A stretch of DNA of 64,000 bases from Mesorhizobium japonicum MAFF 303099. Its GTDB lineage: Bacteria; Pseudomonadota; Alphaproteobacteria; Rhizobiales; Rhizobiaceae. A model generated the notes under the pieces. It saw only the letters and a program-made list of their open reading frames with translations, ran no database searches and was not told where the DNA came from. Shown one piece after another: positions 57,738 through 62,363 of the stretch. The stretch's first letter is position 1; every line of letters starts with the position of its first letter. A program made the translations under genes and the position numbers. The stretch is taken from assembly GCF_000009625.1 (NCBI RefSeq), contig NC_002678.2:3132001-3196000 (forward strand), read 5' to 3'.

Positions 57738-58313
57738 TCAGGGTCCATCGAGAACAAAAGAGCTCGCCACCCGTTCAGCCTCATCGGCCAATGGCACCCA
57801 CTTCCGCTTCATTTGCTCGACGCTGTCGCCCGTGAGCCCGCAGGTCACCAGACCGAAGTGTGTGCCGCGTAGCGAAAGCACGACCTTGGCGTGACCGGGG
57901 AAGCTGGCGCTGCCGTCGCCGACCTGGAAATCCATATCGGCCATTCGTGCCGGATAGCCGTCGGGAAAGCGGATCAACTTTTCGTTGCTGAAGACCGACG
58001 AGGTAAAGGCGGCTCCCACCATCTCTTGCCAGGCCTGCGGCGACCAGCCCGTCTCGAGGAATGCCTTGGGATCGGCGGGGGAATCGGACGCCTGCGGATC
58101 ATAGAGACCGATCGATACCCGGCAGGTGAGGCCCTGATCGCCGGACTTTATCTTCAGCCGCATCGTCTTGCCGGAAGGCTCCTCGATGGTCCACCCTTCC
58201 GGAAAGGTCAGGGAAAATCCGTTATCCTTGTCGTGAACGGTCTTGTCGGCGGCATTGGCCGCCGAGGTGCAGGACAGAAATACGGCAGCCGCAACCGCAA
58301 AGCCGATACGCAT
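57738..58313 (-). CDS. Exported hypothetical protein
   Basis: The protein has 191 residues from ATG 58313 (a GTG at 58316 is adjacent). The signal peptide MRIGFAVAAAVFLSCTSAANA is followed by DKTVHDKDNGFSLTFPEGW. The domain looks like a DUF1795/PsbP-like beta fold with FLETGWSPQAWQEMVG. No enzymatic motif. Convergent with the LysR gene across an intergenic repeat. Confidence 0.7.
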   Translation of the reverse strand: MRIGFAVAAAVFLSCTSAANAADKTVHDKDNGFSLTFPEGWTIEEPSGKTMRLKIKSGDQGLTCRVSIGLYDPQASDSPADPKAFLETGWSPQAWQEMVGAAFTSSVFSNEKLIRFPDGYPARMADMDFQVGDGSASFPGHAKVVLSLRGTHFGLVTCGLTGDSVEQMKRKWVPLADEAERVASSFVLDGP

Positions 58314-58505
58314 CACTGATGCTCGCGAAATGCCAGACGGGGACCATGCGCCCGGCAGGTTGTACCGCCGCGGTCATAACACGGTCAGGTGATGGCCGCC
58401 GCCTTTTCCTTGCCACAAAACCGGCCAGTGTGGCATCAGGCATGTGGTCGCCGGCCATGGGCAGGCCGCCGGTGGGGAATCGTTCAGAAAGCTGGCGCGG
58501 AAAAA

Positions 58506-58949
58506 ATGCGAGCCGTTCTTGCCATCCTGCCGCTGGTGTTCGTTTCGGCCTGCGCCAACCCGTGGACAAAAGTGCCGGAAGCCGAATTGCCCAAGCCGAT
58601 CCGTTATGTCATGGCGGGCCCCTCGCCTTTCGTCTTCGGCAATTATTGCGGCCCTGGCACCCGCACCGGCGATCTGTCGGCTCGGCCGGTCGACCGCCTC
58701 GACGCGGTGTGCCAGACCCACGACGCCTGCTACATCGCCCGCCACAATCATTGCGATTGCGACGGCGCGCTTGTCGCCTCTGCCAGGGCAATCCGGGATG
58801 ACAGGACGGCGCCACGCAAGATGCGCGACGAGGCGGAATTGCTGATCGCTACCTTCGCCATCCCCGTCTGCAAGGTGTTTCCCCAAGGGTTCATGCCGCC
58901 GCGCGACCCGGCACAGTTGAGCGCGATGAAGGCCGGAGCCACCGGGTGA
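58506..58949 (+). CDS. Phospholipase A2-like lipoprotein
   Basis: The protein has 147 residues from ATG 58506. The lipobox LVFVSAC places the lipidated cysteine at residue 16. A secreted-PLA2 signature follows: NYCGPGTRTGD (46-56) as the Ca-binding loop, LDAVCQTHDACY with the catalytic pair H72-D73 flanked by C69 and C75, and CDCDGALV with D86 in the position of the PLA2 catalytic Asp. Enzyme activity is inferred. It overlaps the following phospholipase D-like gene by 4 nt. Confidence 0.8.
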   Translation: MRAVLAILPLVFVSACANPWTKVPEAELPKPIRYVMAGPSPFVFGNYCGPGTRTGDLSARPVDRLDAVCQTHDACYIARHNHCDCDGALVASARAIRDDRTAPRKMRDEAELLIATFAIPVCKVFPQGFMPPRDPAQLSAMKAGATG

Positions 58950-61090
58950 ATCGCCACGCATTTGTCATCCTTGCCCTGTTCGGGCAGACCGCCCTTGCCG
59001 GTTGTGCCGGCATTGGCCGCAATGCCTGCGATATCCTGCCGGGACAGGTGGCCTGCGCGCGGCCGTCCCTGTCGGCCGGCACGCCTGGAGTCGCGGCTTC
59101 GCAGTTTTTTGGCGATGCCGGCGCCAGCGACTACGAAAGGCGCTTCCTGGCGCTGCTCGCCCACAACCAGCTCGGCGCCATGGATCGCGCCAACGGCACC
59201 GGCCCGTTCGGGCGCAACCGTCGCGATGTGCAGAACAGCGACTTCCAGGCGACCTATTCGACGCTGCAGCAACTGGCCGGTCCGGTTGCCAGGGCGCATC
59301 TGCCGCCGGCAAATGGCAGCGGCGAGGGTCATTTCGACGGACGCTGGCGGGTGTCGCGGCAGACTCTCTACATCGACGCGGCAGCGCGGCCCTCGGCCCC
59401 CAAAAATTTCGATTTCTCCGGCCTGCAGGCGCGCAGCGTCGAGATCGTCGTGCGCCAGGCCGGCGAGCAGCCGGCCGAGATCGAGGCCACCTGCGACGGC
59501 GCCTTGGCGATCCGCGCGGCCGGCGCCTCGCGCACCATCACCGCCGGCGCGGCATTCCGCTTTCGCCTGGCGGGCGAGGACGACACGGTCAGCCTGTTTC
59601 CCAGCGACAGCCTGAACCGCTGCACGGCAAGGATCCGCTCCAGCCTTGCCCCGGCCGGTGCTCCGCTTACCATCCGACGCGAAGAGGCCGCGGATCCGGC
59701 TCTCGCCAGCCTCGACAGCCGCTATGAGCGCTGTCCGGTCCCCGACAGCGCCGGCCTCGACGCGCTCGAGCGCGTCTTCTATGCCAGCCGCTGGCTGTCG
59801 CAGACCTGCGCCCTGCCGATCGGCGAGCTCCGGCTGCTGCGCAAGTCGCGCGACGGCTTCAACGCCAAGGTCGAGGCGCTGATGGGCGCACCGCTGTCCG
59901 ATGCGGCAATAGACAAAGGCGACCCGGAGCTGCCTCTCGATTTCTCCAAGGCGCCACGGCTGAAGCTGATCTATCTGTCCTCGCTGGAATTCAAGGCGGA
60001 CTTTTCCGGCTGCATCATCGAGCGGTTGATCCGCCATCATGCCGCCCTTGGCACCAAGGTGCGCATTCTGGTCACCGACGTGCTGGAGCGCGAAAAGGAC
60101 GACGCCATGCTGCACCGGCTGGCGGCGGAGTTCCCCAATGTCGAATTGCAGGAATATCGCTGGCGCGCCGATCATGGCGCGCCGATCGACGAGCAGATTT
60201 CACAGCTGCACAAGACCCATCATATCAAGATGCTGGCGACGCTGGCTGTGGACCCAGCGCGCTCGCGCGTCATCATCGGCGGCCGCAACATCCATGACGG
60301 CTTCCTGTTCCACAGTCCGATCGACCTGTCGCGCTATCCGGACCTGCAGCAATACGGCAAGACCGACGGCTTTTCGCTGAACTACTATTCGAACTGGAGC
60401 GACTTCGACATCGAGTTCGCCGACCGGGCGACGGTCGAGACGCTCGCCGCGCATCTGTCGACAATATGGTTGCGCGATGCCGACACCAATCTGGCGCGCC
60501 CCTTCTCCATCCCGGTGCGTGGAGATGGCCGCCCCCGCGGCAATGCCCGGCATTTCATTTCCGTGCCCTATGAGGACGACCATGCGCTGGAGGGCTATTT
60601 TGTCGAACTGGTTGACGCCGCCCGGCGCCATATCCAGATCGTCAACCCCTACCTCAATCTGACGCCGAGCCTCGCCCAGGCCTTTGACCGGGCGCTCGCC
60701 CGCGGCGTAAAGATCGACATTGTCGGCCGCATCGACCTCAAGGGCGATATTGGCGGCAAGTTCCTCACCGCGCTCAACAGGCTGTTCGTCGAGAAATATG
60801 GCGACCGCATCAACATCCGCGAGTTCAAGGCGCCCGACGTGGTGCTGCATTCCAAGATCATGATGATCGACGAAAGGCTGGTCGCCATCTCCTCGGTCAA
60901 CCTCAACAACCGCAGCTTCTTCCACGATTCAGAGAACGGCATGATGGTGCTCGATCCCGCCTTCTACGTCAGGATGAAGCCGATCTATGACGACTATCTC
61001 GCCCATTCGAATCCGGTTTCCGCCAACGTGACGATCCCATGGGCCTATCGGCTGCTGTTCGATGAAGCCTGGGTCAGGCAGGCATTCTGA
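58946..61090 (+). CDS. Phospholipase D-like lipoprotein
   Basis: The protein has 714 residues from GTG 58946. A signal peptide with lipobox TALAGC predicts a lipoprotein. The N-terminal ~300 residues are unique and include several cysteines. The PLD domains follow. The first HxK is H426-I-K428 in THHIKMLATLAVD, with IIGGRN downstream. The second HKD motif is HSKIMMID (H635, K637, D642), followed by SSVNLNNRSFFHD. It starts within the PLA2-like gene, so the two are translationally coupled. Confidence 0.88.
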   Translation: MNRHAFVILALFGQTALAGCAGIGRNACDILPGQVACARPSLSAGTPGVAASQFFGDAGASDYERRFLALLAHNQLGAMDRANGTGPFGRNRRDVQNSDFQATYSTLQQLAGPVARAHLPPANGSGEGHFDGRWRVSRQTLYIDAAARPSAPKNFDFSGLQARSVEIVVRQAGEQPAEIEATCDGALAIRAAGASRTITAGAAFRFRLAGEDDTVSLFPSDSLNRCTARIRSSLAPAGAPLTIRREEAADPALASLDSRYERCPVPDSAGLDALERVFYASRWLSQTCALPIGELRLLRKSRDGFNAKVEALMGAPLSDAAIDKGDPELPLDFSKAPRLKLIYLSSLEFKADFSGCIIERLIRHHAALGTKVRILVTDVLEREKDDAMLHRLAAEFPNVELQEYRWRADHGAPIDEQISQLHKTHHIKMLATLAVDPARSRVIIGGRNIHDGFLFHSPIDLSRYPDLQQYGKTDGFSLNYYSNWSDFDIEFADRATVETLAAHLSTIWLRDADTNLARPFSIPVRGDGRPRGNARHFISVPYEDDHALEGYFVELVDAARRHIQIVNPYLNLTPSLAQAFDRALARGVKIDIVGRIDLKGDIGGKFLTALNRLFVEKYGDRINIREFKAPDVVLHSKIMMIDERLVAISSVNLNNRSFFHDSENGMMVLDPAFYVRMKPIYDDYLAHSNPVSANVTIPWAYRLLFDEAWVRQAF

Positions 61091-61106
61091 TCTCCCCGCG
61101 CCGCGC

Positions 61107-62363
61107 CTATTTCAGGTAGCGCTCCTGTGCCAGGGCACGGGCATCGATCTCGGGCACCTTGTTCGACATGATGTCGGCCAGCACCTTGGCCGAACCGCAG
61201 GCCATGGTCCAGCCGAGCGTGCCATGGCCGGTGTTGAGGAAGAGATTGGAAAGCTCGGTGCGGCCGATCAGCGGCGGCCCGTCCGGCGTCATCGGCCGCA
61301 GGCCGCACCAGAAGGTCGCCTCGCGCATGGCGCCGGCGCCCGGAAAGAGATCGCCCACCGAATGTTCCAGCGTGCGCCGCCGCGATTCATGGAGCCTGAG
61401 GTCGAAGCCTGAAATCTCGGCCGTGCCGCCGACGCGGATACGGTCGCCGAGCCGGGTGATCGCCACCTTGTAGGTCTCATCCATCACGGTCGACACCGGC
61501 GCCACGTCGGCGTCCTTGATCGGCACGGTGATCGAATAGCCCTTGACCGGATAGACCGGGATCGACCGTTTCATCCGGCGCATGAAGCCGGCCGAGTAGC
61601 TGCCCAGCGCCATCACATAGGCTTCGGAAGCCTTGAACCCCTTGCTGGTGCTGAGGTTGGCAACGCGGTTGCGGCTGCGAAGGACGCGCCAGATCGTCGT
61701 GTCGTATTCGAACTTGACGCCACGCGCCACGCAGAGCTCGGCCAGTTTCTCGGTGAACATCTTGCAGTCGCCGGTCTCGTCATGCGGCAGCCTCAGCCCG
61801 CCGACGAATTTCTCGCGCACGCCGCCCAGCGCCGGCTCCGCCGCAATGCAGCCGTCCTGGTCGAGGATCTCGTAGGAAACGCCATATTTCTTCAGCACCT
61901 CGACGTCACCACCGGTGCCATCGAGCTGCTTTTGGGTGCGAAACAGCTGCAGCGTGCCCTGGGTGCGCTCGTCATAGGTGATGCCGGTCGCCTCGCGCAG
62001 CGCCTTCAGCGTGTCGCGGCTGTATTCGGCCAGCGGCACCATGCGCGACTTGTTGATGGCATAGCGCTCGGTCGTGCAGTTGCGCAGCATCTTGACCAGC
62101 CAGGTCCACATATGCGGGTCGAAGGCCGGTCGAACCACCAGTGGGCCATGCTTCATCAACAGCCATTTGATCGCCTTTAGCGGAATGCCGGGCCCGGCCC
62201 AGGGCGAGGCATAGCCGGGCGAAATCTCGCCGGCATTGGCAAAACTGGTTTCCAGCGCCGGGCCTTTCTGGCGATCGAGCACCGTCACCTCGTGGCCGGC
62301 CTCGGCGAGATAATAGGCCGTGGTCACCCCGATGACGCCGCCGCCCAGCACCATGATCTGCAT
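61107..62363 (-). CDS. dadA: D-amino-acid dehydrogenase small subunit (DadA)
   Basis: The 418-residue FAD protein starts [23 protein letters not shown]. It contains GKSSxx-like [25 protein letters not shown] (split by length limits: [11 protein letters not shown] then [11 protein letters not shown]) and a C-terminal [18 protein letters not shown], both diagnostic of DadA. It oxidises D-amino acids, chiefly D-alanine, to keto acids. The alanine racemase gene is about 1.4 kb upstream, with two Rnk-like genes between. Confidence 0.95.

Follow-up and report, generated by a model that had tools for sequence, protein, structure and literature searches.

A coupled pair of phospholipase A2-type and phospholipase D-type genes in Mesorhizobium, a candidate module for phospholipid editing in the cell envelope

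In a stretch of 64,000 nucleotides from Mesorhizobium japonicum MAFF 303099 (NC_002678.2, positions 3,132,001 to 3,196,000; hereafter the window), two overlapping genes were computed to encode a small protein with a domain of the phospholipase A2 (PLA2) type and a large one with a core of the phospholipase D (PLD) type, each with a lipobox at its N-terminus. Related bacteria tend to have either both genes or neither, and the two may thus have a joint role in editing membrane lipids. We propose, with a probability of roughly 0.45, that it constitutes a two-gene module for phospholipid editing in the cell envelope.

Two overlapping genes and their predicted lipoproteins

The PLA2-like gene (58506-58949, 147 amino acids, ATG start) and the PLD-superfamily gene (58946-61090, 714 amino acids, GTG start) both lie on the forward strand, as do all their features given below, and they share the four nucleotides GTGA (58946-58949), in which the PLD start codon overlaps the PLA2 stop codon. 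A signal peptide with a lipobox can be read at the beginning of each product, ending in VSAC in the small protein (residues 1-16; 58506-58553) and in LAGC in the large one (residues 1-20; 58946-59005). An earlier note on this DNA, made from its letters alone, had taken both proteins for lipoproteins, and a lipobox in each (VSAC16 and LAGC20) agrees with that prediction. The coordinates, the overlap and the residues that it had named (the lipoboxes, NYCGPGTRTGD at 46-56, H72-D73, CDCD at 83-86 and K637) were all found as described. Single-protein searches returned one copy of each gene in the 7.6-Mb genome, and the close relatives among the matches listed (in one case the best 120 of 239) are mostly from Mesorhizobium.

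The small protein has residues of the PLA2 type and likely the fold of that superfamily. By alignment to solved PLA2s and to rows of its own family, a putative Ca2+-binding loop, NYCGPGTRTGD, was located at residues 46-56 (58641-58673) and a catalytic-type His72-Asp73 at 58719-58724, the latter falling on the catalytic His-Asp of the solved enzymes. The family alignment also delimits CDCD (residues 83-86; 58752-58763), whose D86 is the candidate for the second catalytic Asp. Throughout its 34 rows, chosen by hand from the window and 69 homologue matches, the loop residues N46, Y47, C48, G49, G51 and G55 are invariant, as is His72-Asp73. The lipobox Cys16 is kept in 33 of the 34, and the lipobox is weaker in two rows (LSDC, LADC) because an Asp directly precedes the Cys. 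As judged from sequence, the similarity to PLA2s is above chance: the single protein matched solved PLA2 chains with best expectation values (E) of 1.4e-5, 4.1e-5 and 4.9e-5, and with a threshold of E <= 1 the family profile retrieved 89 distinct PDB sequences, of which the 60 listed are without exception PLA2s or PLA2 homologues, a bungarotoxin and a taipoxin chain among them. The earlier note had staked the assignment on a helix pair and a Ca2+-binding loop. Two adjacent helices were indeed predicted, the loop aligns to that of solved PLA2s and the fold was matched to rice PLA2; a Foldseek search with the model of the small protein gave no significant match.

The protein thus shares with the secreted PLA2 superfamily (PF00068; rice PLA2 2wg7/2wg8/2wg9) the loop motif YCGxG and the His-Asp in CxxHDxCY, besides the helices and the fold match. 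In contrast to that superfamily, it has a lipobox, only six further cysteines and a Pfam score below the cut-off, and each of the 12 genomes of the family Rhizobiaceae in which its type occurs has a PLD gene next to it. Secreted-type PLA2s of bacteria, as well as those of plants, are treated in two articles (PMC11525133 and the plant review PMC6635587). The former describes bacterial PLA2s with a His/Asp dyad, namely the group XIV enzyme of Streptomyces violaceoruber and TtaP/DUF1353; their Pfam families were not among the matches listed for the window protein at E <= 1.

The large protein belongs to the PLD superfamily, with PLDc domain matches above cut-off (PF13091, E 1.5e-17; PF00614, E 1.8e-6) and a predicted two-lobed fold. 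Its first half-site (60221-60289) consists of H426-x-K428 and G445-G446-R-N448 and is devoid of the Asp of the HxKxxxxD (HKD) motif, whereas the second (60848-60937) is complete, with H635-x-K637-x4-D642, N652 and E663; parts of the model are of low confidence around the first. The lipobox Cys20 is found in 27 of 28 PLD rows, the remaining one having a gap. When four E. coli enzymes were compared as single sequences with the PLD profile, ClsC came out best, over 312 columns and with both half-sites aligned. Foldseek ranked phosphatidylserine synthases and a PLD best, and the top structural match is vaccinia F13. By fold and profile, the protein is placed among the phosphatidyltransferases no less than among the phospholipases. 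As a feature of its own, a predicted all-beta region of ten strands (residues ~136-245 of the structure model; 59351-59680) adds to the N-terminal side of the PLD core. A reading as a defence system was rejected: the PADLOC matches of the PLD protein were to the DrmC and Mko models, via the second PLD half, and the PLA2 protein had none at E <= 1.

Both genes are under purifying selection. The median ratio of nonsynonymous to synonymous substitution rates (dN/dS) is 0.129 for the PLA2 gene and 0.241 for the PLD gene, each from 190 pairs of 20 sequences (19 of the 60 named loci described below, and the window).

Conservation and genomic setting of the pair

The two genes adjoin in all 60 named loci, two of which (L033 and L062) bear a title other than Mesorhizobium. 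A PLD start codon at the four-nucleotide overlap is possible in 58 of them, a count biased toward overlap by a start-codon rule that takes the nearest codon. The two others are L046, whose PLD gene also has an internal loss, and L076, in which the PLA2 gene is split over two frames, as it is in L073. Shine-Dalgarno-like words precede the PLD start in only 29 of the 58 loci, which is no strong evidence for a ribosome-binding site there.

Across the genus (119 genomes; PLA2 at E <= 1e-3, PLD at E <= 1e-30), PLA2 was found in 79 genomes, PLD in 80, both in 78 and neither in 38. In the 78 genomes with both, the genes adjoin on the same contig, as read by eye from the coordinates; the PLD gene is damaged or cut in two of these (G265, G344), the PLA2 gene is in two pieces in G249 and the PLD gene of G310 lies at a contig end. 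The single occurrences are remnants, a piece of PLA2 in G284 and pieces of PLD in G273 and G291. The corresponding site was inspected in 19 of the 38 genomes lacking the pair. The LysR-type regulator gene that borders the pair elsewhere is present in all 19, and in 15 of them the dadA-like gene is 26-1487 bp off with no pair between, one of these retaining a PLD remnant. The dadA-like gene is absent from the stretch in the other four, both with dadA and LysR matches below 60% identity left out and without that filter. At four loci that otherwise lack the pair (L152, L153, L154 and L187), remnants of either gene lie between LysR and dadA.

Among 297 genomes of the family, PLA2 profile matches occur in 12 genomes of five genera, the match in G765 containing one stop, and a PLD gene follows downstream in 12/12. 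The PLD profile (E <= 1e-40) finds 18 genomes of eight genera, six of which have no PLA2; its absence is less certain in G975 because the PLD gene sits close to a contig end. In three of the four genomes of genus g390, the PLD gene comes after the same LysR gene, and no PLA2 gene separates the two. One genome of g412 and one of g413 have the pair but no match to LysR, mmsA or dadA within the 10-kb stretch. Within the family, PLA2 is therefore always accompanied by PLD, and PLD can stand alone. A survey of co-occurrence had been set beforehand as a test, with separation of the genes in most genomes as the adverse outcome, and such separation was not seen in the family.

Beyond these limits, the genes become rare. 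An order-wide survey of 249 genomes found, outside the genus, weak PLA2 relatives in seven and clear PLD relatives in two; outside the family, relatives of the two were seen only apart, never adjoining in the stretches read. PLA2 was detected in 3/385 genomes of the class, the window's own included, which agrees with the earlier statement that animal-like PLA2s are uncommon in bacteria; this has to be tempered, as annotation places proteins of the PLA2 family on plasmids (Methylobacterium, staphylococcal, enterococcal and others) and in two phages. Three such proteins from the order, Methylobacterium included (L112:4909-5367, L115:4689-5156 and L207:4704-5336), were examined. Within the stretches read, no match to PLD accompanies those of L112 and L115, and L207 has none by annotation. 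In a single case, on a Bdellovibrio plasmid (L206:4851-8644), a distant relative of the PLD (27.6% over 517 residues) has a one-base overlap with a neighbouring gene, whose protein carries acyltransferase and condensation domains.

The pair has a common chromosomal setting. Its neighbours encode a LysR-type regulator (sub-threshold matches to the YafC and GcvA models), a methylmalonate-semialdehyde dehydrogenase (mmsA-like; TIGR01722, above cut-off) and a D-amino acid dehydrogenase (dadA-like; NF001933, above cut-off). At varying distances, these are present in 54/54, 54/54 and 53/54 full-length loci, respectively, the last count leaving aside a dadA match of L075 (24% identical) on the other side. 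Between LysR and the pair, 24 of the 54 loci have a divergently transcribed gene (57738-58316, reverse strand) for an exported protein of 192 amino acids, which has no Pfam match at E <= 0.01. In 58100-61200, no sigma-70-type promoter was found (0.6 expected), and there are five terminator-like sites against 2.4 expected. No Pho-box-like site lies upstream of the pair, which speaks against phosphate regulation; four sites elsewhere in the window match the consensus with up to three mismatches (chance mean 3.8).

Phospholipid editing and its alternatives

With a lipobox each, both proteins are presumed to be lipid-anchored. They are probably in the outer membrane because Ala, not Asp, follows each lipobox Cys; this sorting rule is that of E. 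coli and may differ in this host. In phospholipid editing, glycerophospholipids would lose their sn-2 acyl chain to the PLA2 protein, which would work with Ca2+, His72 and a partner Asp and deacylate lipids in the same leaflet as the PLD protein. The latter would hydrolyse the head group or, like the outer-membrane cardiolipin synthase ClsO, move a phosphatidyl group onto another lipid. The joint outcome would be that misplaced phospholipid is removed or converted. In E. coli, PldA (OMPLA) partly clears phospholipids misplaced at the surface. No protein of the PldA family (PF02253) was found in this genome. PldA is of a different family, and only the proposed job, the deacylation of misplaced surface phospholipids, is alike.

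Some caveats attach to both assignments. In the profile search that the earlier note had proposed, the PF00068 match of the PLA2 protein (E 7.2e-6) exceeds chance but, with 26.9 bits, stays below the Pfam cut-off of 32.1; many close relatives carry PF00068 in precomputed annotation, and one from Methylobacterium scores 32.6. Of the secreted-PLA2 layout claimed in that note, the loop and H72-D73 hold, but alignments to solved PLA2s do not put D86 on the second catalytic Asp, which we take to be Asp99. That correspondence comes from the presumed helix and disulfide layout. Cys85 is invariant, and residue 86 is Asp in 29 rows and Asn in five. On the PLD side, the first HKD motif is without its Asp in 28/28 rows, whereas two HxKxxxxD motifs would characterize a ClsO-type enzyme. 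The former view of two lipid-cleaving domains accordingly keeps its PLA2-type residues and its PLD core, but a phosphatidyltransferase fits the latter equally well.

According to a recent article (PMC12846801), ClsO is a lipoprotein of the outer membrane that belongs to the PLD superfamily, makes cardiolipin at the cell surface and has homologues in several classes of Proteobacteria. From this description, ClsO of Acinetobacter and other Proteobacteria shares with the window protein the superfamily, a lipobox and a ClsC-like core; the window protein differs by the missing Asp, the extra N-terminal beta region and the coupling to a PLA2-type gene. By analogy, it may resemble ClsO in its mode of action and yet not be a ClsO itself. 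A more specific version of phospholipid editing, which we consider possible but doubtful, is that a PLA2 lipoprotein of the animal and plant secreted type and a ClsO-like phosphatidyltransferase act sequentially on outer-leaflet phospholipids, deacylating and then transferring or converting them, and so take on in these alphaproteobacteria the work of PldA and ClsO elsewhere.

Alternatively, the pair could scavenge, stripping acyl chains and head groups off external or dead-cell phospholipids for fatty acid, phosphate or head-group amines. The bond specificities would be complementary if both are hydrolases, and such a role is feasible for lipid-anchored surface enzymes. We judge it unlikely in view of the missing Pho-box-like site and of adjoining genes that are mmsA-, LysR- and dadA-like, with no transporters for the products. 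Less probable still is that PLD is the sole enzyme and the PLA2-type protein a non-catalytic helper subunit that binds lipid or senses Ca2+. The one-way dependence of PLA2 on PLD within the family and the Asn at residue 86 of some rows would suit a helper, but the invariant loop and His-Asp together with the strong constraint on the gene are the pattern expected of an active site.

Hardly different in likelihood, and if anything slightly lower, is an attack on plant or microbial membranes in symbiosis or competition. The plasmid and phage relatives from Gram-positive bacteria speak for it, and among known secreted factors there is a streptococcal PLA2 of this kind. The lipobox anchors and the shared chromosomal setting nevertheless argue against it. 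The use at a host membrane suggested in the earlier note received no support from the nearest genes or from the 38 genomes of the genus with neither gene. Moreover, PLD-like lipoproteins of the ClsO type were formerly taken for secreted lipases that damage host membranes, according to PMC12846801. Finally, a membrane-anchored nuclease with an accidental link to lipids would account for weak sequence matches of the second half-site of the PLD protein to Nuc and NucT and for structural hits on NucT and on two further nucleases, PLD3 and PLD4, but it is very improbable given the GGRN motif, the alignment of both half-sites to ClsC, the best Foldseek matches and the coupling to a PLA2-type gene.

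Novelty and significance

No description of a coupled PLA2/PLD pair was found in the titles and abstract openings of the open-access literature. Both domain types are known, as are lipoproteins among PLD-family enzymes; it is their coupling that these searches did not turn up. Should both enzymes work on the outer membrane, phospholipid editing by this pair would represent a maintenance route similar to that of PldA and ClsO in bacteria that lack PldA; the pair would also be a simple system of two genes in which to test the turnover of surface phospholipids. Besides, its natural presence or absence at one chromosomal site within the genus offers ready strains for comparison.
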